A stretch of 16,997 bases of DNA, from NCBI GenBank assembly GCA_001871075.1, contig MNUP01000085.1, positions 1 to 16,997 on the forward strand, given 5' to 3'. Position numbers and translations under genes: made by a program. The number at the start of each line of letters is the position of its first letter. Positions within the stretch are counted from its first letter, which is position 1. Under the pieces are notes generated by a model. The model saw nothing but the letters and a program-made list of their open reading frames with translations, did no database searches and was not told where the DNA came from. Source of the DNA: Candidatus Desantisbacteria bacterium CG1_02_49_89 (lineage in GTDB: Bacteria; Desantisbacteria; UBA1551). Positions 656 to 15,976 of this stretch are shown piece by piece.

Positions 656-3600
656 TCAGTAGTATAGTACTTCTACCTTGATATCTTTAACCGGTTTATC
701 AAAAACAACCCATTCTTTGGCTGGGTCAAAATTGGAATAAGATGAGCCATTGACAAGGACCTTTTTGATTTGCGCCTGTTTCGGATGGCGAATGCGGACA
801 AATATATTACCGGGACTCTTGCGGAGATTAAGCTCAAGATTGCAGACAATTCTTTGCGCCGAAACAGATTTATATTCAGCGCTGACAGCGCCGAACCCGG
901 TTTTTACGTTCTTCAGCCACATTTTTTCCTTCTTCGCGAACCACTGCCGCGGGATCCCTTTTCCTATGTAGAGCTCGTCCCCGGCCTCGCACACGAACAT
1001 CATTTTCAGCCACCTGGAAAAATTCGCCTCGTCAGAGGTCTTGAAGTGCGCGCCGCCCGTTATCCCGAGCTTTGGCAGGGGGTGCTCTACCAGGAGGTTA
1101 AGGTCAGGCCTGTAAGCGGACGCGAATCCGTTAAAAAGCGCGCGCAGAAAATGCCTTATCTCGTCCCTGTATAAATAAGGAAGAGGGCCTGGCAGAAGGT
1201 TGGGCTGCATTGAGAACCCGCCGATACCGAACCACTGTTTTTTGAAATTGCGAAGCCCGTACCCGAACCTGCGGTCAACGTAGCGGTTATCCTCGTAATC
1301 CTTAAGGATCCAGGCTGCCTCCTGCGAACAGGGGTCAAAAAGCCGGGCGATGAGCGTGTAGATCGCACCCTCCAGCACTTCCCTTATCCATCCGTAATCC
1401 CTTCCGCGCAAATACAGCCGGGACGGAAAATGTGGCACGTAAGTACCATCCCGCAGTTTTACAACCGGGGATCTGCGACTTGCCTGCCTGAAACCCGTTC
1501 TCAGGTCATCCGCGTATTCCCCGGCTTCTTTCCCAAGCCTTTTTCCTTCAGGATGGCCTGCTTCTAAAAGCGCCCTGGCGCAGGAATCAAGCCCCCACCA
1601 GGTAAGAGTGTTGGTTGAAAGCCAGTAATAGAATTCTGTCACATCCTCAAGACTGCCTGCGGGAAGGAACCCGTATTCCATGGCTCCCGCGTTCTTCTTT
1701 GTATTGTTCCTCTGCCTTATAACCCAGTCGCATCCGGCAATAAGCCTGTCAGCGCTGGATAAAAGCCATTGCGCGTTGCCGCTCAGGCGAAAATGCTCTC
1801 CCGCGCACCACAGCACCCAGCCGTGATGCTGATTGTAATGGCCGCACTCGTACCCGCCTGCCCCGAAGAACATCCCGTTATAGTCAGTGAAGTTCCCGGG
1901 CTGGGGCACAGTGCCCTGGTATTTCAGGAACACGCCAAGCCGCCTTTCTGCCTCGTCGTGCAGGCCGCGCTGGTCCAGGTCATTGATGATCATGCAGGAT
2001 TCGTTCGAAAAATTGCCGTACGAGACAGTGCCCACGCAGGTGTTCACGAGCTTGTTGTCGTCAGGCATTGCTTCATCCGTTATGAAAACGTGCGCGAGAT
2101 GCGTGCGATGGAAATCGTTGAGGATGGGCTCAGGCGTTCTTATGCCGCATCCCCTGTTCTCCTGCTTTTCCCAGAACTCTTTCGCCTCGGCAAGCTCCCT
2201 GCCGAACTCCTTCACTCCAAGAGCAGAAAGCTCTTCCGCGGTCTTAAGCGCGGTAAAGGGAATCTTGATCACCACCTCTTCTGATCCGCCCGCCCGCAAA
2301 ACCGTTTTGTAAACAAGTTCCCTTTGGGTGCTTTCGCAAAATTTACCCTCTCCCCTCAAGGGAGAGGGAGAAGATGAGGAAATTGAAAAGCGCAGAAGGT
2401 TCTCGTTCTTATAATAGGTATAAACAAGTTCATCTATTTTTATTAGGCCTTCGGGCTTGCCGCCCGCAACCGCGTTGTTCGTATACACAGCTTCTGCCAG
2501 CGCGGAAAGCTTGAGTTTTACGCTTGCTGCTTTCCTGCCCGTGTTCTTAATTATAATTCTTGCAATCGCGATAACAGGCGAATCCGGGGGGATCTCGCCC
2601 GCAAGGATGCTGCGTAAAAGCGGCACCGCGAATACTGTCTGTGAAACTGAGACTGTCCCTTTCCTGAAGATTGAAGTTAATATCGGCAGTTTATTTTTTT
2701 CAATGTATCTATCTTCCAATCTGTAATCTTGTAATCCGATCTTCAGGCCCCAGTTCCCCTCCCTTTTAATGCCGGGGGTATCTTCGCCTTTCACGTTCAT
2801 CAATCTGGGGTTGTCGCGTATCAGTATCGCGCCGTCAGGGAAGATCATGAACTTCTGCCTTGAGTGCTTGCACCCAACAAAATAATAGGTAAGGTCGGGC
2901 TTCGGCATTGCTTTCAGCGCGTTTTTCAGGGATTGTTCTTTATGCTTAAAAACCATGTCGTAGATCGTCTTGTTCTTCTTGAGGGCACAGGTTATTTGCC
3001 CGAAAGGCCTGGTATCAGAGGAATTTTTTACAAGGATATTAAGAAGGGGAACAAACACGGGGTTTTCAAGCGCTTCTTTTACATTGAAAGTAAAGCTGCC
3101 TTTATCTGTATTTAGCGTGACAAGCGGCTCGTCGCCGGAAAAGGGATTTTTCGGGGTCATTATGGTGAGCTTGATTTTCGATTGGAAGATTGGAAGATTG
3201 GAAGATTGTCCGCCCATGTTGGTACTGGGCGAAACCTCGCCCCGATGTAAAGTTGGGGCGGGGACTATTGGACTATTCGACGATTGGACAGTATTTAAAA
3301 GCTCACAATTATAGGTGCTTACGACAGTTATGGGATTATTGTCTTTGGATTCAATTGTAAGGGCGGCTTGCTTGCAGGGGGAAGTGGTGTAAACCGCGGG
3401 ATTTTTGAGCGGAGATCCTGCGGGCAGCCCGATCTTAAGCTTCATTGTCCTTCTGAACCTGACAGCGTAATTCTTTTCAGCCGGATATTCTTCCGAAAGC
3501 GGGCGGAATCCGATAATTATTCTTCCGTTTTCCTCTTTTATCTCTGTAGAGGCAAGCTTATACTCGCCGTTGAACCAGTCATCTGTTTTTGCCCAGCCAA

Positions 3601-3805
3601 AACCGCCTGTGCCCCGGCTCAATGAAGTTTCCCAGCGTTCTTCTGGCCAGATTTTTTTCCAGTACAAGACCTTTATGGCCGAAAGATCCTGCTGGCTGGC
3701 GGTTTGCGGCTCAAGAACTACGGATTCGATGTCCCGTGCCTCTTCCCAGACCCATTCATTTTCGCTAATTTCACGGGCAAACGGTATTATATTTATTTTT
3801 TTCAT
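656..3805 (-). CDS. Large predicted six-hairpin glycosidase-like protein
   Basis: A 1049-aa protein with no visible signal peptide, so probably cytoplasmic. The N-terminal half (to about residue 520) is beta-rich. From about residue 535 to 920 it is helical and rich in Trp, Tyr and Gly, with stretches such as GGYECGHYNQHHGWVLWCAG, and reads like an (alpha/alpha)6 toroid as in six-hairpin glycosidases. A small beta domain closes the protein. I cannot name a GH family or assign catalytic acids. The ATG at 3805 is preferred over a GTG at 3826 because AGAGG sits 5 bp upstream of it. Two stretches (residues about 170-210 and 475-491) are low-complexity and match repeat DNA, so they look like in-frame insertions. 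Downstream of a strong promoter at 4054-4081 and near a URO-D-like gene, it is probably part of a sugar-related operon. Confidence 0.7.
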   Translation of the reverse strand: MKKINIIPFAREISENEWVWEEARDIESVVLEPQTASQQDLSAIKVLYWKKIWPEERWETSLSRGTGGFGWAKTDDWFNGEYKLASTEIKEENGRIIIGFRPLSEEYPAEKNYAVRFRRTMKLKIGLPAGSPLKNPAVYTTSPCKQAALTIESKDNNPITVVSTYNCELLNTVQSSNSPIVPAPTLHRGEVSPSTNMGGQSSNLPIFQSKIKLTIMTPKNPFSGDEPLVTLNTDKGSFTFNVKEALENPVFVPLLNILVKNSSDTRPFGQITCALKKNKTIYDMVFKHKEQSLKNALKAMPKPDLTYYFVGCKHSRQKFMIFPDGAILIRDNPRLMNVKGEDTPGIKREGNWGLKIGLQDYRLEDRYIEKNKLPILTSIFRKGTVSVSQTVFAVPLLRSILAGEIPPDSPVIAIARIIIKNTGRKAASVKLKLSALAEAVYTNNAVAGGKPEGLIKIDELVYTYYKNENLLRFSISSSSPSPLRGEGKFCESTQRELVYKTVLRAGGSEEVVIKIPFTALKTAEELSALGVKEFGRELAEAKEFWEKQENRGCGIRTPEPILNDFHRTHLAHVFITDEAMPDDNKLVNTCVGTVSYGNFSNESCMIINDLDQRGLHDEAERRLGVFLKYQGTVPQPGNFTDYNGMFFGAGGYECGHYNQHHGWVLWCAGEHFRLSGNAQWLLSSADRLIAGCDWVIRQRNNTKKNAGAMEYGFLPAGSLEDVTEFYYWLSTNTLTWWGLDSCARALLEAGHPEGKRLGKEAGEYADDLRTGFRQASRRSPVVKLRDGTYVPHFPSRLYLRGRDYGWIREVLEGAIYTLIARLFDPCSQEAAWILKDYEDNRYVDRRFGYGLRNFKKQWFGIGGFSMQPNLLPGPLPYLYRDEIRHFLRALFNGFASAYRPDLNLLVEHPLPKLGITGGAHFKTSDEANFSRWLKMMFVCEAGDELYIGKGIPRQWFAKKEKMWLKNVKTGFGAVSAEYKSVSAQRIVCNLELNLRKSPGNIFVRIRHPKQAQIKKVLVNGSSYSNFDPAKEWVVFDKPVKDIKVEVLYY
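2346..2368. repeat. GGGAGAGGG palindrome inserted in frame in the glycosidase gene
   Basis: A perfect inverted repeat, CCCTCTCCC - CTCAA - GGGAGAGGG. On the minus strand it is translated as part of SPSPLRGEGKF. Relatives lie at 3826-3848 (just upstream of the gene) and in the long palindrome at 10198-10272. It belongs to a widespread class of intergenic REP-like elements and is unusual inside a coding frame. Confidence 0.75.
3176..3297. repeat. Composite low-complexity repeat inserted in frame in the glycosidase gene
   Basis: This stretch holds about three tandem GATTGGAAG units (3180-3208), a GGGCGAAACCTCGCCC palindrome, and two GGACTATT units followed by CGATTGGAC. It adds roughly 40 Ser/Pro/Asn-rich residues (about 170-210) between two beta-strand-like stretches. 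The length keeps the frame open, so the repeat is translated rather than disrupting the gene. Confidence 0.65.
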
Positions 3806-3825
3806 ATAAACCTCTAAAATAAACA

Positions 3826-3883
3826 CCCCCTCCCTGTCCGGGAGAGGGCTTAAAGACAGAAACAGTCAGGGCTTAAGCCCTGA
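3826..3883. repeat. Two REP-like palindromes upstream of the glycosidase gene
   Basis: At 3826-3848 there is an imperfect CCCTCCC - tgtcc - GGGAGAGGG hairpin. At 3866-3883 there is a perfect 18-bp palindrome, TCAGGGCTTAAGCCCTGA. Both would lie in the untranslated leader of the glycosidase mRNA if the promoter at 4054-4081 is used. A related GGGCTTTAGCCC palindrome occurs near 6454-6466. Confidence 0.7.
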
Positions 3884-5411: not shown

Positions 5412-5728
5412 GCTCGTTCTCCTTTCGGATAAACATATTTAAAAATACCTGGCCCTGCCTTTATTATTTGCGCCGCCTTTTTAAATGACATGGTATCAAC
5501 TTTGTGAAATTTTTCACATTGTCGCCTGTGGATCGTTTCGGGGTCGAATGTCTTCTTCTGCCGCATCTCCAGCTGGTTCACCGCACTTGAGGGCATGAAA
5601 TTGCACCCAACCAGCCACGGCTGTTTGTAATACCGCTCGTTCGCCCTTTCTTTAGTCCGCGCTTGGCTGCTCATTTCCTCATCCGCATTGATCGTTTTTT
5701 CGACAAGATTTACACTACATTTATACAT
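5405..5728 (-). pseudogene. N-terminal remnant of a glycoside hydrolase
   Basis: A 107-codon frame. Residues about 19-66 (DNA 5531-5674) match the N-terminus of a family of cytoplasmic glycosidase-like proteins (annotated as beta-xylanase or cellulase-like) with the signature PWLVGCNFMPSSAVNQLEM followed by TFDPETI. The family usually runs on for about 300 more residues with a DRELGWA segment. Here the sequence changes abruptly after ETI to an unrelated tail containing CEKFHKVDTM. The frame ends in a TGA overlapping the start of the URO-D-like gene by 7 bp, so its translation could couple the two genes. The catalytic domain is gone. The remnant suggests that a further glycosidase once preceded the URO-D-like gene. 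Confidence 0.6.
5502..5519. promoter_or_regulatory. TGTGA-N6-TCACA operator-like site
   Basis: TTGTGAAATTTTTCACAT matches both the CRP/FNR-type pattern (TGTGA-N6-TCACA) and the Rex-type pattern (TTGTGAA-N4-TTCACAA, one mismatch). It is 91 bp upstream of the URO-D-like start, where a carbon- or redox-responsive regulator could act. It lies inside the remnant reading frame, so it may instead be accidental. Confidence 0.4.
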
Positions 5729-5749
5729 TATTTAAATTCTGTAGTGTAA
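5710..5749 (-). promoter_or_regulatory. 40-bp palindromic promoter-operator, copy 1
   Basis: Perfect 10-bp arms TTACACTACA (5710-5719) and TGTAGTGTAA (5740-5749) enclose 20 A/T-rich bp with a TATAAA-like -10 on the minus strand (5720-5725). It is nearly the same as the copy at 6362-6401, in the same orientation. It sits over the stop codon of the nucleotidyltransferase remnant and before the glycoside hydrolase remnant. Confidence 0.65.
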
Positions 5750-6048
5750 GATATTCTTTATCAATTAATTCATACATAAGCGGAAAGAGGGGCTTTGCGT
5801 CTTCAAGGCTCTTTTTTATCTGAACCTTCCATTTCTTTGGGAACCCTGAATATATTTTGCCTATATCTTCGGGCTTCAGCGCCTCACCCACATAAAGGGC
5901 CTGTTCTATATCCTTCATTTTCTTATTTTTTTACCCCAAAATGCTCCTGGTATAGAAAGAAGCACCAACTGCCTATCAGGACGATCCCTTCTTTCCACAG
6001 GTCGTTGTCATCAATGATCTTAAGTACATTTTTAACGGGCTCGAGCAT
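5721..6048 (-). pseudogene. Nucleotidyltransferase-like gene with an internal deletion and frameshift
   Basis: Two pieces in different frames. The first runs from ATG 6048 for 41 codons and contains IGSWCFFLYQEHFG, which resembles the start of GS-motif nucleotidyltransferase-like proteins just before their acidic active-site strand. It stops at a TAA after a run of seven A. The second, 5721-5918, encodes MKDIEQALYVGEALKPEDIG and KIYSGFPKKWKVQIKKSLED, typical of the C-terminal end of the same proteins. The middle (on the order of 130-150 residues, including the catalytic acids) is missing, with the junction near the A run. The first piece overlaps the preceding gene (6032-6346) by 17 bp, so the two were translationally coupled. 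The product would be inactive. That both pieces come from one gene is inferred from family resemblance. Confidence 0.55.
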
Positions 6049-6346
6049 TTCTTTTCCCCTCGGACCGCCTGATTATCTCTAACGCCTGTTTCGCCTCTTT
6101 CAGCTGTTGCAGCATCAATTTGCGCTTTTTAAGATCCTTCTCGATTAAGACGGGCTTTTCTTTCCCAAGGTATTTGTGCACAACCTTTTCTCCGTTCCTT
6201 AACTGAAGATAATAATAGGTCCTGCCGTATATATTTCTTTTTTTAACGCTGCCTTTGGGCAGAGATCCAATTCCTTTATTAAGTTCTTTTTGGATCGCTA
6301 TATAATATTCTTTGCTTTCCTGCAATATGCCTGTTAGAACCCTCAT
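6032..6346 (-). CDS. Small basic protein paired with a nucleotidyltransferase-like gene (antitoxin candidate)
   Basis: A 104-aa Lys/Arg-rich protein with a central GSLPKGSVKKRNIYGRTYYY segment, then LQLRNGEKVVHKYLGKEKPV, and a helical, charged C-terminus that could form a coiled coil. I do not recognise a named family with confidence. Genes of this kind are found just upstream of nucleotidyltransferase-like genes in pairs resembling toxin-antitoxin units, and the 17-bp overlap here fits that. I chose ATG 6346 because GGAGGA lies 5 bp upstream; an open frame runs back to 6442 but starts inside the promoter. A palindrome at 6362-6401 covers the leader and a second -10, suggesting autoregulation. 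The partner is deleted, so it may now be an orphan antitoxin-like protein. Confidence 0.65.
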   Translation of the reverse strand: MRVLTGILQESKEYYIAIQKELNKGIGSLPKGSVKKRNIYGRTYYYLQLRNGEKVVHKYLGKEKPVLIEKDLKKRKLMLQQLKEAKQALEIIRRSEGKRNARAR

Positions 6347-6361
6347 CTCTTCCTCCGGCCA

Positions 6362-6401
6362 TACACTACAATTATACAATTTATTACATTTTGTAGTGTA
6401 A
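6362..6401 (-). promoter_or_regulatory. 40-bp palindromic promoter-operator, copy 2
   Basis: Arms TACACTACAA (6362-6371) and TTGTAGTGTA (6391-6400) are perfect inverted repeats around an A/T-rich core with a TATAAT on the minus strand. It lies between the sigma-70 promoter at 6414-6442 and the ATG at 6346, where a bound repressor would block both. It is the upstream twin of 5710-5749. Confidence 0.7.
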
Positions 6402-6413
6402 AAGACCAATGAT

Positions 6414-6442
6414 ATTATATCATAAAAGGCGCCTAAAGTCAA
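6414..6442 (-). promoter_or_regulatory. Sigma-70 type promoter of the nucleotidyltransferase pair
   Basis: TTGACT (6437-6442) and TATAAT (6414-6419) are 17 bp apart on the minus strand. Transcription would start near 6407, just upstream of the palindromic operator. Confidence 0.75.
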
Positions 6443-6730: not shown

Positions 6731-7258
6731 CTAAGCATCGGGATAAACGGGGAAAAGATGAGCGATAAAACGACCAACAAACGGCAACAGAACAAAAGAA
6801 AGAAAAACAATACTAACAATTAATAATCTACCGGGTAACCCATTTATTAAATTCATCCTTTCATCACTAATCTCAACTTTAGCTATTCCAAAAATAAGCA
6901 GTAGTATTGAAACTATAGAAATAGAAGGTGTTAATATTCTTAAAAAATTTCGATATGGAGAAAAATATAAAATTACTATTAAAAAATCTCCTAATATTGA
7001 AAATATTACCGCCCATATTGTAATTTTATTGAACTTCCCCCTTTTCCTAAAATTTGAAGGTGGTTTATTCTCTGTTTTACCTGAATATTTAACCACTAAG
7101 GAAACTAAAAATTGTATAAAACGCGGCATGCACAAATAAAAACCAACAAAAGCAGACGCAAGACCAAAAACAGAAAGGATACTTTGTGATTTAGATCCCA
7201 CAAATACACATATTATCCCACCAACTAATAAAAAAATATCCAAATATTTCTTAAACAT
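6731..7258 (-). CDS. Five-helix integral membrane protein, unknown function
   Basis: A 175-aa, very hydrophobic and A/T-rich gene. I see about five membrane segments, near residues 7-25, 30-56, 80-101, 107-127 and 145-168. A hydrophilic, basic loop (SGKTENKPPSNFRKRGKFNK) lies between the second and third. No enzymatic motif is visible and I do not recognise a family. The start at 7258 has GAGG 3 bp upstream. It follows the deaminase-ATPase gene on the same strand, with 254 bp and a pair of hairpin repeats between them. It could be the membrane partner or effector of that gene, or an unrelated passenger. Codon use is A/T-rich like that neighbour and unlike the metabolic genes on either side. 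Confidence 0.6.
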   Translation of the reverse strand: MFKKYLDIFLLVGGIICVFVGSKSQSILSVFGLASAFVGFYLCMPRFIQFLVSLVVKYSGKTENKPPSNFRKRGKFNKITIWAVIFSILGDFLIVILYFSPYRNFLRILTPSISIVSILLLIFGIAKVEISDERMNLINGLPGRLLIVSIVFLSFVLLPFVGRFIAHLFPVYPDA

Positions 7259-7373
7259 TTACCTCGCTCTCTTTCTGATCTGCCCCATCAATTTCTAAAC
7301 CACCTGTCCACTTGCTTTCCGACCTCTATCTGTATTCAGTGGATTAGAAGTGAGGGTGGGATACCACGCGTTT

Positions 7374-7441
7374 GAATTTCGACAAAATATGGGAAAAAGT
7401 GTCGAGATTAGGCATCATGGTTAATGCTCACCGACGGGAAA
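7374..7441. repeat. Hairpin-containing repeat, copy 1
   Basis: Contains TTTCGACA - 19 nt - TGTCGAGAT. The 37 bp at 7374-7410 match 7463-7499 at 34 positions, and the resemblance goes on weakly to GGGAAA at 7436-7441. It lies 89 bp from copy 2, in the gap between the membrane-protein gene and the deaminase-ATPase gene. I see no gene elsewhere in that gap. Confidence 0.75.
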
Positions 7442-7462
7442 ACTTCCACTTATCAGATATAT

Positions 7463-7531
7463 GAATCTCGACAAAATATCGGAAAAAATGTCGAGATTAA
7501 CCACAATGGTTCCTACTCACTAAAAGGGAAA
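7463..7531. repeat. Hairpin-containing repeat, copy 2, overlapping a gene end
   Basis: Contains ATCTCGACA and TGTCGAGAT as perfect 9-bp arms around a 19-nt loop. The right part runs across the stop codon and last six codons of the deaminase-ATPase gene (7513-7531). Copy 1 therefore looks like an eroded tandem duplication of that gene's 3' end with its hairpin, which may serve as a terminator. Confidence 0.7.
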
Positions 7532-9033
7532 GCCCTGTTTGCCATATACACAGTAGATGGACCCGCCCCCAACATATTAATAATTCCTAATTTGTGAAAA
7601 TGCTCTAAATGCCTTTCCGCTTTTCGATTATTATAATTAAAATGTTCTGCATAATCATTCTTACTTATTTGCCATACAATAAAAACATGTTCTACTCCAC
7701 GTATCTCATCACTGTTGAGTTGATCAAGAATTTTCTTGTCTGTTAGAGGTGGAATATCCTTGCTAGATCTATAAAATATTAAATCAAGAAAAGGTTCTTT
7801 AAAAGAAAAATACGGAAAGGGAATATTATATTCTTGGGGTAATGATCTGTATGTATTCATTCCAAGTCCTCTTCCTTCTACTAAATTTAATTCATCGAAA
7901 ACAGAAAATATCTGAGGATTTCGACTTAAATAGGGAGCATTAAAATTTTGCATCTGCTCTAAAGAAATAGGTGCAACAGGACGACCAGGACTTTTTACGA
8001 TTATTGTATGTTCATTAATTTCAACGTGACAAAGTGCTAATTTACAATCGTAATCTCTGTGAGCCAAGGCATTAACCAAAGCCTCACGAATTGGTTTATA
8101 AGGAAAGTCCGTACGAGATGATCTTTGAGAAGATGATCTATCTATACTCGTTCGCAATACGCTGTACCACCATTCTTCAAAAGCCTTTGGAACAAGAACC
8201 AATGGACCTTTAAAATCCTTAATTCCAACCCTTCTATCCGGATAAGTAATAGTGCCCTTAAGGGTCACCTGCGAATAAAAATCTTCAGGATTTTTACCGA
8301 AAAGAATTAACCCAATTCCCGTTGGAATATATTTTCCAGCTATTTTATCCACTAATCCTTTGTGGTATAACTTATTGAAAAAATCTTTTGATACTATTGT
8401 TCCTTTGAAATTCGTTTCTTTTTTATAAAATTCAAGAGCTTCATTAGAGAAATCAGAAAGGCTAGCTTTTTTGTTTGCCTTTTCAAAATCAGACAAAACA
8501 AAAGATGTATTTTTATCTGCGTTCTCAGCTCTTTCTCTTGCTTGTTTTATGAACTCAAGGTTCTCTTTTTCGATGATCTTCTGTAAATCTTGATCGAACA
8601 TTTTAACTTTAATACCTGCATCTTGTAAACATTTTATACCTTTACGATCAACCATTGGGTCAGGATCTTCAATTCCAATCCACATTTTCTTAATGCGTGC
8701 CGAAACGATGCGTTCAGCACAACAAACTCTTCCGGGACCACGAGATCCAGGTGCGCAAGGTTCTAGGGTAGCAAATAAATAAGAACCTGTTAAATCCGCT
8801 TTCTCATGTTTCTTATCAAGGACTGTAAATTCTGCATGATCCCCCTGGCGCAATTCTCCTCTAAAACCTGTATCGATAGAACCATCGGGCATAAGTAACA
8901 CTGCTCCAACTTTGGGACTTTTTTTATCTGAGCGAGGTTCCTGAATAGATTTTTTCATTACCTTAACTGCCATCTTCATGTATTTGCGTGGTTCAAATTC
9001 CTTAAATTTTTTTTCAACGCTTTTTTTATTCAT
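7513..9033 (-). CDS. RibD-like deaminase fused to GHKL-type ATPase and winged helix
   Basis: A 506-aa protein with three parts. Residues about 17-148 form a cytidine-deaminase-fold domain of the RibD kind: the zinc motif is HAE (His66, Glu68) plus EPC (Cys93) and VCC (Cys104/105), followed by GIEDPDPMVDRKGIKCLQDAGIKV, the stretch RibD uses to close the fold. Residues about 180-425 resemble the ATPase of COG2865 (HATPase_c_4): REALVNALAHRDY (Glu317, Asn321) is the N-box and EGRGLGMNTY (386-395) the glycine-rich lid. Residues about 430-500 look like a winged helix. COG2865 proteins normally begin with an AlbA/Schlafen domain; here a deaminase takes its place. The substrate is unknown; a nucleotide or nucleic-acid base is inferred. 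An inverted repeat at 9076-9111 covers a possible promoter. A/T-rich, likely transferred. Confidence 0.8.
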   Translation of the reverse strand: MNKKSVEKKFKEFEPRKYMKMAVKVMKKSIQEPRSDKKSPKVGAVLLMPDGSIDTGFRGELRQGDHAEFTVLDKKHEKADLTGSYLFATLEPCAPGSRGPGRVCCAERIVSARIKKMWIGIEDPDPMVDRKGIKCLQDAGIKVKMFDQDLQKIIEKENLEFIKQARERAENADKNTSFVLSDFEKANKKASLSDFSNEALEFYKKETNFKGTIVSKDFFNKLYHKGLVDKIAGKYIPTGIGLILFGKNPEDFYSQVTLKGTITYPDRRVGIKDFKGPLVLVPKAFEEWWYSVLRTSIDRSSSQRSSRTDFPYKPIREALVNALAHRDYDCKLALCHVEINEHTIIVKSPGRPVAPISLEQMQNFNAPYLSRNPQIFSVFDELNLVEGRGLGMNTYRSLPQEYNIPFPYFSFKEPFLDLIFYRSSKDIPPLTDKKILDQLNSDEIRGVEHVFIVWQISKNDYAEHFNYNNRKAERHLEHFHKLGIINMLGAGPSTVYMANRAFPFSE

Positions 9034-9270: not shown

Positions 9271-9298
9271 ATTATAACCATATTTAGTAAAAAGTCAA
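9271..9298 (-). promoter_or_regulatory. Sigma-70 type promoter for the deaminase-ATPase gene
   Basis: TTGACT (9293-9298) and TATAAT (9271-9276), 16 bp apart on the minus strand. The 34 bp at 9267-9300 match the glycosidase promoter region at 32 positions. The leader would be about 230 nt and contain the inverted repeat at 9076-9111. Apart from these two sites I see nothing further in the 285-bp gap between 9034 and 9318. Confidence 0.7.
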
Positions 9299-11794: not shown

Positions 11795-14700
11795 TTACTT
11801 CTTCTTAGGGGGACGGCCGCGCTTTTTGCCTGCGGGCTTTTCCAGCTTTGACCCTTTATCTTTCGCAAGGCTCCCTCCATTACTAACTTGGCGGGTCTTC
11901 GAAAAGCCCTGCCCTACGACATCTTTTTCATCATCCTCAGGCGCTATGCGCGCGACCGCGACAACCTTGTCCCCGGCTTCCAGCTTCATTATGTGCACAC
12001 CCTGGGTTGCCCTGCCTATTTCCCGCAGGCCCTTGACCCCGAACCTGATGATTATGCCTGAAGAGGTTATGACCATAAGCTCGTCTTTGTCCTCAACCGT
12101 CCTTATGGCAACAACAGGCCCGTTCCTGTCGCTTCCCTTGATGTTGATAACGCCCTTGCTGCCCCTGTGAGTTTTGCGGTATTCCTTGATCTCTGTCCGC
12201 TTGCCGAACCCGTTCTCTGTCACGGTGAGAAGCGACTGTTCCTCGCTTGAGGTTGTGACCATCCCTATCACGTAATCCTTCTTTTCAAGGGACGCGCCGC
12301 GCACGCCTGTCGCTCCCCTGCCCATCGGCCTGACCTCCTGCTCTCCAAACCTTATTGCCTGGCCCTGGTACGTTCCGAGGATAACTTCCTGGTTTCCGTC
12401 AGTAAGGCGCACGTCGATAAGCTGGTCATCTTCGCGCAGTTTCAGGCCTATGATGCCTGTTGACCTGGGATGCGAATATTCCGAGAGAAGGGTTTTCTTG
12501 ATGACCCCGTGTTTTGTCGCCATTATGAGGAAGTGCTTGTCATCGAACTCCCGCACCGGTATGTAGGCGGCTATGCGCTCTTCCTGGGAAAGCTTGAGCA
12601 GGTTTATTATAGCCTTGCCCTTTGCCTGCCTTGAGCCCACCGGGATCTCGTAGACCTTCATCCAGTAGACCTTGCCTATGTTGGAGAAGAAAAGGATCTG
12701 GTCGTGGGTTGAGGCTATGATGATGTCCTCGACAAAATCCTCCTCTTTGGTTTCCATTCCCACAACGCCCCTTCCGCCCCTGCGCTGCCTGCGGTACGTG
12801 TCAAGCGGCAGGCGCTTTGTGTACCCGGCGTGGGATATCGTGACGACCATGTCCTCTTCCTGTATCAGGTCCTCTATGTTGAATTCGGCCTCTCCCTCGA
12901 CTATCTTGGTCCTGCGGCTGTCCCCGTATTTCTTCTTCAGTTCAGCGAGATCTTCCTTAATAAGGTTAAGGATCTCTTTCGGGGTCGCCAGTATGAATTC
13001 CAGGCGCGCTATCTTCTTGCGCAGTTCGATATATTCCTGGTCAAGCTTCTCCTTTTCAAGCTGCGTCAGCCTTTGCAGCTGCATCTGCAGGATCGCTATT
13101 GCCTGCTCTTTGCTTAAGCTGAAACTGTCCATCAGTGCCTGGCGCGCCTCGTCCGCGTCCTTGGATTTCCTGATGGTCTTTATGATGGCATCCAGGTTTG
13201 CAAGCGCTATTTTCAGGCCCTCGACTATATGCGCCCTTGCCTTCGCCTGTTTCAGCTCAAACTGGCTGCGCTTCGTGATTATTTCCTGGCGGTGCTTGAT
13301 ATAATAATGCAGCATTTCCTTAAGGGTGAGCACCTGGGGCTTGCCGTCAACAAGCGCGAGCATTATAACGCCGAACGTTGCTTGCATCTGGGTGTGGTGG
13401 TAGAGCTGGTTCAGTATAACGTCCGGCATTTCGTCGCGCTTCAGCTCTATGACCACGCGCATCCCCTCGCGGTCAGACTCGTCGCGCAGGTCGGCAATGC
13501 CTTCTATCTGTTTTGTCCTTACAAGGTCCGCGATCTTCACAAGCAGTTCTGACTTGTTCACCTCATAGGGTATTTCCTTAACTATTATATTGGTCTTGCC
13601 CTGCCTGCCTTCCTCTGTATCCGCAAGCGCCCGCACGGTTATCAGGCCCCTGCCTGTTTCGTAAGACGACCTTATACCGTCCCTTCCCAGTATTATGCCC
13701 CCTGTGGGAAAATCAGGTCCGGGCATTATCTTCAGCAGGTCCTTGACATCTATGGCCGGGTTATCTATGACCGCGGTTATCGCGTTGGCAAGCTCAATAA
13801 GGTTGTGGGGAGGGATGTTGGTCGCCATCCCGACCGCTATGCCCGAAGAGCCGTTGAGGAGAAGGTTGGGCAGAACAGACGGCAGCACGCTGGGCTCTTT
13901 CAGGGTTCCGTCAAAGTTGGGAAGGAAATCAACGGTTTCGGATTCTATGTCTTTGAGCATCTCCATCGCCATGTGCGCGAGCTTCACTTCGGTGTATCTC
14001 ATTGCCGCGGGCGAGTCCCCGTCAACAGACCCGAAATTACCCTGGCCGTCGATAAGAGGGTAGCGCAGGCTGAATTCCTGCGCCATCCTGACAAGGGTGT
14101 CGTAGATCGCGAGGTCACCGTGCGGGTGGTATTTTCCCATACAATTATGAGAAACCATCCCGTTTGCAATAAATTCATGCGTATTTTCTACCTGCATATC
14201 ATAGGTTACCTCGGGGTGGGCCTGCTCGATTTTCGCCACCCTTAAGAAATAGATTTCGTCTGAAATCACGTCATTTATAAATTCTGCTAAAGGAGAACCA
14301 ACCTTCACCAGTTTCTCCTGAATGCCCCAGTCAACAATCTGAGTTCTTCCCAAGTATTTTTCTTTTAAATCGGCTGAATAACGAATCTTGCAACCACCCG
14401 GATATTTTATTCCCCTTCTGAATTTCTTACCGGATCTGTCGGTGTACCACCCGCCGCCAAGATGCGAGCTGCTCAATTCCTTAAAAATAGTTTCTGAACC
14501 GTTAGGAACAATGTCGTATTTAATAAGCTTCAGCCTGTCAGATCCAATCTTCCTTAGCAATTCGTTCTTAGCTCTTTTACCTTCATCCATAAGGTTCAAA
14601 AATGGCGCCAGTTTTGCGGCAAAGCGCCCGTTTGTTTCCAGCAAGAAAGAAGGATGCCTGCTTTTTATCTCTCTGCCGTTAACGATGTGGCTTTTGAGAT

Positions 14701-15976
14701 TTTCATTTTTATATTTTGTGCTGAAAATGCCAAGGTGCTGAAGCAGCACCGCAATTTGGTCAACCAGCGTCTCAGAAATAGATGTGTATCTGATGATGTT
14801 CCTTTTGTTGTGAATGCTGCCGTCGCCGTCTATTAAACCGCTGATAAACGAAAATATTGCGCTCTTCGGCGATTTAAGTATCTGCGGCGGGATAACCTTG
14901 GTTAAAGCATTGATGTCTTTCAGAGAAAACGTAGAAATCAAATAGGAATTGATTTCCGAGCTATTGATCCTTATCTGATACCCCCTGTTTCTCATTATTT
15001 TACCGCTGGTTGCTCTGTAATCGTAATCGATCACTTCTGTCGTGGCGTCATATTTAAATTCTACTTTAAGCACCGAATGTATTTTTTCCATAATCGGCTT
15101 TGAATTAGAGTAAAAACAAATTCTTGGATATTTCCCCCTGGCAAGCCAGCCGTCGGAGATTAATTGCCCAAGGAGGTAGGCGATGTTTTCATTAAGATAC
15201 AGGATTCCTTTTTTAAAATCGGGCAGTCTCATATACTCTTTGATTTCAGGATAATGGGCGCGGACGACTATGTGGTCGTTCTCGCTGAGCTTCCCGGCCT
15301 CTTTCCACTCATATTTGAGCTCTTTGTTCAACACCCTGAACATCTGGGAGGGGGTCGCTGTGCTGGATATTCCGTTTTCAAGCGAAATCTTAACCAGGTT
15401 TCTTTCCGGCATCTCGTATAGTTCGGTAACCCTTTCCTCTCCGGTTTGCGTAATTATTGTTTCTCCCCGCTCCACTTCTTGAACAGGGATTAAACCGCGA
15501 TTTGTCAAAATGAGCGTATCCTTAACAAAACACTCGCCCACGATGCGCGCGCTCTTCTTGTACGGCTTGTCGGGGCTGCACCCCAGCTCGTTCATCGCGT
15601 GCAGGATCCTGCGGTGCACGGGCTTCAGCCCGTCGCGGATATCAGGCAAAGCCCTGCCTACTATCACGCTCATCGCGTAATCTATGTATGAGTCCTGCAT
15701 TTCATCTTCTATTTCTCTGGGCAGTATGCGTTCTTCCGAAGGTGGCGGGGCAGCGGGTTCGGGTTCAGGGTGCCCGAACTTGTTCGGGGGTTTTTTGTTT
15801 TTTGCGGGCGGCTCGGTAAGCGGCACAAGCTCGGGGTGCCCGAACTTGTTCGGGGTTTTCTGTTTTTCCTCGTCAGGCGCTGCTGCCTTCGGTTCCTCTT
15901 TCTGCGCATCCTGCGCGATTTTAACGATTTCTTCTATGCCCTCTGCTGGTTTCTTTTTCGGTCTTCCTTTTGGCAT
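11795..15976 (-). CDS. gyrA: DNA gyrase subunit A, interrupted by an intein
   Basis: A 1393-aa precursor: 930 aa of gyrase A plus a 463-aa intein (residues 149-611). After splicing the N-terminal junction reads [17 protein letters not shown]. The catalytic tyrosine is in AAMRYTE (Tyr661 of the precursor). The GyrA-box QRRGGRG is at 1064-1070, ahead of the C-terminal beta-pinwheel, which marks gyrase rather than topoisomerase IV ParC. It cuts and passes DNA with GyrB to add negative supercoils. The first 85 residues are an unusual Pro/Lys/Glu-rich extension with PNKFGHPE twice, encoded by a duplicated palindromic repeat. Both ends carry AT-hook-like cores (KGRPKKK at residues 3-9, KRGRPPKKK at the C-terminus). 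ATG 15976 has GGAG about 9 bp upstream. gyrB is not in the window. Confidence 0.95.
14144..15532 (-). other. GyrA intein with LAGLIDADG homing endonuclease
   Basis: 463 aa, in frame within gyrA between Glu148 and Cys612. Block A starts [10 protein letters not shown]. The endonuclease motifs are [11 protein letters not shown] (intein residues about 120-130) and [12 protein letters not shown] (229-240), a two-motif LAGLIDADG enzyme. Block F/G reads [21 protein letters not shown], then the +1 Cys, so the nucleophiles Cys1, Asn463 and Cys+1 are all present. Block B reads ATPSQMF, with Gln63 where inteins usually have the His of TxxH. The segment is visibly richer in A/T than the flanking gyrA sequence, as expected for a transferred element. 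It lies just ahead of KYHPHGD, not at the mycobacterial MRY/TE site, which is intact here. Confidence 0.95.
15768..15789. repeat. CCGAACAAGTTCGG palindromic repeat in gyrA, copy 1
   Basis: A 22-bp sequence built on CCCGAAC - AA - GTTCGGG, identical to 15834-15855. On the minus strand it is translated as PNKFGHP in the GyrA N-terminal extension. Confidence 0.8.
15834..15855. repeat. CCGAACAAGTTCGG palindromic repeat in gyrA, copy 2
   Basis: The second identical 22-bp copy, exactly 66 bp (22 codons) from the first, so both are read in the same frame. The following T-rich stretch is also similar, so the duplicated unit may be about 40 bp. Confidence 0.8.

Follow-up and report, generated by a model that had tools for sequence, protein, structure and literature searches.

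A rare, apparently undescribed family of deaminase–GHKL ATPase–winged helix fusion proteins and its association with restriction-modification loci

Accessory proteins of restriction loci and the closest described relatives

It is established that restriction-modification (RM) loci can contain accessory toxins, as in the case of PrrC with EcoPrrI (PMC12707154, PMC3506569), TgvAB (PMC11411939) and DarTG2 (PMC12255303). A dedicated repressor, RptR, was also found to be carried by an RM locus (PMC12255303). The protein described here, in which a deaminase is joined to a COG2865-type GHKL ATPase and a winged helix, resembles the anticodon nucleases PrrC and RloC in being encoded within hsd loci and in the abortive effector role that is expected of them and that we propose for it. 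In contrast to these nucleases, which have an ATPase of the AAA/ABC type, it is a deaminase without such an ATPase, and it is also found where type I RM is absent.

The COG2865 ATPase module is common and poorly understood, and proteins that contain it are commonly annotated as regulators. Classical COG2865 proteins, composed of AlbA_2 and HATPase_c_4 (e.g., DIP2311), have in common with the fusion the middle domain, the GHKL ATPase, and the N-box and glycine motifs, but they carry AlbA_2 where the fusion carries a putative catalytic deaminase. In the pAgo-associated SIR2–COG2865 proteins (PDLC02402/PDLC02418), the common core is joined to an N-terminal effector-type enzyme, as in the fusion; however, this enzyme is an NADase-type SIR2 and the association is with a short Argonaute, whereas the fusion has a deaminase. 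The nearest fold to that deaminase, with an identical order of zinc motifs, is the deaminase domain of RibD/RibG, but RibD also has a reductase domain, which the fusion lacks, and the pocket residues of the fusion are altered. Additionally, AvcD/AvcID, a deaminase-based nucleotide-depletion defence reportedly described by Hsueh et al. in 2022, would be similar to the fusion by analogy, as a deaminase acting on nucleotides in defence. The regulatory half of the fusion (GHKL and winged helix) appears to be different from that of AvcD/AvcID.

A deaminase–COG2865 fusion was not found described in the open-licence papers searched, which is weak evidence of absence, and no deaminase profile of PADLOC-DB 2.0.0 matched the protein. 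The rare family of deaminase–ATPase fusions is apparently undescribed. Both of its halves have names at the Pfam or NCBIfam level, and what is new is their combination, an RM-linked accessory effector in which an ATPase module known from other proteins bears a different enzyme.

Architecture and conservation of the fusion protein

The fusion gene is an ORF with an ATG start and 506 codons for amino acids at 7513-9033(-) of the window, by which we mean the whole analysed stretch of 16,997 nucleotides. Its 22 aligned full-length family members (duplicates removed) come from 21 independent loci, L015 and L016 being near copies, and the relatives are 28–47% identical to the window protein. The first-pass annotation had read the order of domains as deaminase, COG2865-type ATPase, and winged helix, and this order was borne out by Pfam and by an AlphaFold2 model. 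The model was built with 13 family sequences and had a mean pLDDT of 83 and a pTM of 0.57, at which the placement of the domains relative to each other is unreliable. As the identical domain order and the catalytic residues recur in relatives across phyla, the fusion is not an accident of chance or assembly.

The RibD-like deaminase domain occupies residues 12–169 (8527-9000(-)) and matched PF00383 dCMP_cyt_deam_1 at residues 16–120 with an E-value of 4.6e-12, above the curated cut-off. Its zinc site reads H66-A-E68 ... P92-C93-x11-C105. The H66-A67-E68 segment, with a zinc ligand and the catalytic glutamate, is encoded at 8830-8838(-), and the segment from P92-C93 to C105, with the zinc cysteines and the family-specific R98 and K/R102, at 8719-8760(-). 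The HxE and PCx(n)C motifs of the zinc-dependent cytidine deaminase superfamily were present throughout the family (n = 22), with H66, E68, C93, C105 and R98 invariant in 22/22 members. His66, Glu68, Cys93 and Cys104/105 had been proposed as zinc ligands. H66, E68 and C93 indeed proved invariant, but the second cysteine is C105, as C104 is not invariant, and Glu68 presumably acts as a proton shuttle, as is usual in this family, and not as a ligand.

RibD enzymes were matched by the N-terminal part in a sequence search of the PDB (best 1.1e-15). They were also the closest in structure: residues 12–169 of the model aligned with RibG (2b3z/4g3m) with a VIA-align Z of 20.3, about 30% identity and deviations of 2.0–2.4 Å, vs. 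about 15 for TadA, 14.8 for dCMP deaminase, and about 14.7 for yeast cytosine deaminase, although such fold scores alone do not tell substrate classes apart, as the value for dCMP deaminase illustrates. However, the NCBIfam RibD profile TIGR00326 aligned only at positions 2–137 of 343 and scored 62.8 bits vs. a cut-off of 156, and in this alignment the C-terminal reductase domain was absent from the window protein. The pocket differs as well, as we saw when comparing the 22 family members with 11 RibD controls. The N of NPxVG, kept in 11/11 controls, is S, D or T, and once P, in the fusion family, and the H of GYH/GFH, present in 10/11 controls, is replaced by R58 in all 22 members. The loop between the cysteines is longer than in RibD and contains the invariant R98 and the near-invariant K102, and the family has the signature RGELRxGDHAEF, which is new relative to RibD. 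Moreover, a true RibD of 369 amino acids is encoded separately in the window's genome (contig C81). Riboflavin synthesis, called unlikely already in the first reading, was rejected on the basis of the absent reductase, the changed pocket signature, and this second gene. For the same reasons the substrate of the fusion is probably different from that of RibD, and a phosphorylated nucleotide-like compound would be the simplest guess.

Some properties of this domain would also fit the editing of foreign DNA or RNA, with the winged helix or the RM complex as a guide. A domain of a DNA-binding type is present on the same chain, and five basic residues close to the pocket motifs (R58, R62, R98, K/R102 and R113) are invariant or near-invariant. 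The protein also matched Inv-AAD in Pfam with 39 bits, and its predicted model had a weak Foldseek similarity to APOBEC3 enzymes. However, the nearest folds, with a Z of 20.3, are those of RibD enzymes, whose substrate is a free nucleotide-like compound, and TadA and yeast cytosine deaminase score lower, with the limit on fold scores given above. We consider nucleic acid a very unlikely target. Equally improbable, in our opinion, is the wider idea of 'restriction by editing', a restriction-linked class of effectors that would deaminate bases of foreign DNA or RNA chosen by the winged helix or the Hsd complex.

As a separate observation, a contig from a viral collection (L038:4282-5316) encodes a deaminase with the signature RGELRxGDHAEFTLLE on a different N-terminal part; therefore, this deaminase type also occurs outside the ATPase fusion.

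The COG2865-type core, comprising the middle domain and the GHKL ATPase, corresponds to residues 179–424 (7762-8499(-)). PF13749 HATPase_c_4 matched residues 335–419 (3.1e-10, 40.3 bits vs. a cut-off of 26), and the ATPase part retrieved DIP2311 (3lmm) from the PDB by sequence at 7.9e-05. The model of the core aligned with the same structure with a Z of 22.5 over 228 residues at 3.1 Å. In support of the earlier view that a deaminase stands in place of the AlbA/Schlafen N-terminus, AlbA_2 did not match the window protein at E ≤ 1 in Pfam, while the same library detected it in a control protein (L023:12354-13838) with an E-value of 1.2e-18. The N-box REALVNALAHRDY (residues 316–328, 8050-8088(-)) is conserved, with E317, N321, A322, H325, R326, D327 and Y328 invariant in an alignment of 16 sequences. 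In the glycine motif E386-G-R-G-L-G391 (7861-7878(-)), E386 and G391 are invariant and G389 is nearly so. Thus, the motifs that had been called intact, i.e., the zinc site, N-box and glycine lid, are present, and the catalytic and N-box residues are conserved across the aligned relatives. Typical GHKL members have a D-x-G-x-G motif, and at its position the family reads S/N-P-G, because of which the predicted binding of ATP by this domain is not certain.

The last 75 residues of the model have the helix-helix-helix-strand-strand order of a winged helix, which extends over about residues 430–500 (7534-7746(-)). In pairs of relatives the dN/dS ratios indicated purifying selection on the fusion gene. 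The well-diverged pairs gave 0.05–0.07 for the deaminase, 0.14–0.21 for the core, and 0.18–0.25 for the winged helix, which evolves fastest in most of the pairs compared.

Distribution of the family and its restriction-modification context

The fusion is rare. It was present in 4/386 genomes drawn across bacteria, in 7/395 genomes of one phylum, and in 4/65 species of genus g336. A full-length fusion is encoded by genome G002, and 12 loci of the genome collection encode one, of which one is the G002 gene again. The window's genome has a paralogue (contig C83) with the full-length domain order and 30% identity to the window protein. A search for proteins with this order thus found relatives in several phyla, their lineages including Bacteroidota, Ignavibacteriota, Planctomycetota, Bipolaricaulota and KSB1. 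Carriage by plasmids or phages was considered and rejected, as the full-length fusion was not found in searches of plasmids, phages or IMG/VR.

Type I RM genes, detected with Pfam or tblastn, surround or lie beside the fusion at 11 of the 21 independent loci (L017, L018, L019, L023, L024, L050, L072, L073, L074, L075 and L076; the assignment of L050 is based on one HSDR_N/MmeI_N-type protein alone), with the fusion often placed between hsdS and hsdR. Two more loci have other, type II-like RM genes near the fusion: an SfiI-type endonuclease and a methylase in L022, and an Eco57I-type methylase and a PLD-helicase in L070. The paralogue (L014) adjoins a nucleotidyltransferase–HEPN pair. For six further independent relatives no neighbouring gene was recognised as a defence gene, and some of these loci are on short contigs; L020, L025 and L049 have the fusion among ordinary genes. 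Around RibD- or TadA-type deaminases used as controls, hsd genes were found at 0/15 loci. The background of HSDR_N, with 99 matches in 145 genomes, was about 0.5% per 20 kb, and the chance of finding HSDR_N at at least 6 of 12 loci was about 1e-11, or about 1e-5 at ten times that background (genome sizes were approximated). The RM genes can be very close: the fusion overlaps the preceding one in L018 and follows it by 3 bp in L023 and by 10 bp in L024, and in L019 a SIR2_2 gene sits between hsdS and the fusion. The enrichment is unevenly spread over the family tree, in which a clade of eight members with 100/100 support, from Ignavibacteriota, Planctomycetota, Bipolaricaulota and two lineages of the phylum from which the 395 genomes were drawn, is type I-associated in its entirety.

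The HsdR encoded beside the fusion at L075:2658-5822(-) itself ends in an AlbA_2 domain.

In four species of g336 (L072, L073, L074 and L076) the gene order is hsdM-hsdS-[cargo]-fusion-hsdR, in which the fusion is always present and the slot next to it varies in content. The slot contains a PDC-S06/PrrC-like AAA_13 protein in L072, Lamassu LmuA, LmuC and LmuB in L073, SIR2-APAZ with a short Argonaute (SPARSA-like; L074:5696-8891, between hsdS and the fusion) in L074. In L076 it holds only a short ORF of no identified family. The intergenic gaps on both sides of the fusion are roughly 260–290 bp. Such a constant position just upstream of hsdR, at these distances, could be that of a transcription or restriction regulator of its own RM locus, whose winged helix would bind DNA and whose deaminase would only sense or turn over a nucleotide signal. 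The usual annotation of COG2865 proteins agrees with this, and the C-terminal winged helix would also suit a transcription regulator. Dedicated repressors are known in RM loci, RptR being an example (PMC12255303). However, in well-diverged pairs constraint is highest on the catalytic centre and lowest on the winged helix, there are members in genomes without a detected HsdR, and the COG2865 core is also found joined to SIR2, a known kind of defence effector. In our judgement, regulation of the RM locus is an unlikely function.

The link of the core to SIR2 is seen in PADLOC PDLC02402, which unites a SIR2 domain with the COG2865 core: the SIR2 protein of L074 matched profile positions 6–296, the window protein 273–488, and an AlbA-type COG2865 protein 357–489. 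As an ordinary AlbA–COG2865 protein matches the same pAgo/SIR2 profiles, such matches were not accepted as evidence of an Argonaute partner. An AlbA-type COG2865 protein adjoins HsdR in L023, and in four genomes (G030, G047, G053 and G058) matches of this type lie no more than about 1 kb from HSDR_N. From PDLC02402 and these neighbourhoods it seems that the COG2865 core accompanies type I loci repeatedly and that its N-terminal domains are exchangeable. They lend support to the idea of a modular switch, with PDLC02402 as a precedent for the swapping of effectors. The 2.5-Mb genome of the window (G000) encodes about nine HATPase_c_4 proteins, two of them with the deaminase.

The position between hsdS and hsdR is also that of prrC within its type IC locus (PMC12707154, PMC3506569), as if the fusion were a guard of the same kind, held inactive by the Hsd complex until a phage anti-restriction protein frees the deaminase as a killing arm. 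The clade of eight, all type I-associated, would be in line with that. On the other hand, HSDR_N had no match in the window's genome (93.5% complete) or in G130 (100% complete), both of which encode a fusion, and the members in L022 and L070 are accompanied by type II-like RM genes. Such members must be independent of a type I complex, and the copies in G000 and G130 argue against a strict dependence of the family on it. We find a PrrC-like guard function distinctly improbable.

The window copy and those of L020, L025 and L049 lie among ordinary genes, as would be expected of a housekeeping or salvage enzyme unconnected with defence that occurs in variable regions by chance. Against this stand the patchy presence of the fusion, both in the 386 genomes and in the 65 g336 species, and an RM association far above background; moreover, no relatives were found in riboflavin operons, and the genome retains its separate RibD. 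Such a role appears extremely unlikely.

Proposed role and the surroundings of the window copy

About half of the family is inside RM operons, which makes an anti-phage effector role probable. Our preferred reading, to which we assign a probability of about 0.5, is that the fusion is a mobile accessory anti-phage defence protein with a deaminase effector controlled by the ATPase/winged-helix module. The N-terminal deaminase, with its RibD/dCMP-type zinc site, would be the effector, and a small phosphorylated nucleotide would be its most likely target, nucleic acid a less likely one. The COG2865-type GHKL/winged-helix half would serve as sensor and switch, keeping the effector silent until infection. 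After a trigger, depletion or poisoning of a nucleotide pool by the deaminase would stop phage growth, probably together with the cell. The fusion would often ride as cargo in type I RM operons, like PrrC, Lamassu or SIR2/Argonaute, but could also stand alone, as the window copy does. If this reading is correct, a deaminase joins the toxins carried in restriction operons (PrrC-type ATPases, SIR2, Lamassu and Argonaute), the COG2865 ATPase module acts as a sensor of general use that is combined with different enzymes (AlbA, SIR2, deaminase), and the GHKL part of the very widespread COG2865 family obtains its first testable function.

The support for a defence role comes from those relatives whose genes lie inside type I RM operons and not from the neighbours of the window copy. 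A defence role had been suggested from the window itself, and this suggestion is supported by relatives at 11/21 loci, but the window has no hsd gene (tblastn) and no RM or recognised defence neighbour. The fusion gene does lie in an A/T-rich island, as had been noted, with 34–37% G+C over about 6.0–9.0 kb vs. about 50–58% in most of the flanks. However, the description of neighbours as toxin–antitoxin-like found no support: the ORFs at 6731-7258, 6032-6442 and 5721-5918 had no credible match to a family in Pfam or PADLOC, and toxin–antitoxin partners were dropped from consideration. RNA families and tRNAs were not found in the window.

A promoter-like TTGACT-16-TATAAT at 9271-9298(-), about 240 bp upstream of the start codon, has 11/12 matches to the consensus and is a consensus match only, and promoter-like sites across the region were not in excess over shuffled sequences. 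A 70-nt repeat is present twice (79% identity, copies 89 nt apart) at 7373-7531(-), spanning the stop codon of the fusion gene and the stretch just past it. The copies contain inverted repeats of about 10 bp (AATCTCGACA...TGTCGAGATT) and are possibly a terminator; a further copy was not found in the genome assembly.

Two other genes of the window deserve mention. The 1056-aa ORF at 656-3826(-) had no Pfam match at 0.001 and by eye looks to us like glycoside phosphorylase/amylo-glucosidase-type enzymes. The gyrA gene at 11795-15976(-) contains an in-frame intein, with matches to Intein_splicing (1.8e-14) and LAGLIDADG_3 (3.6e-17) inside DNA_topoisoIV.
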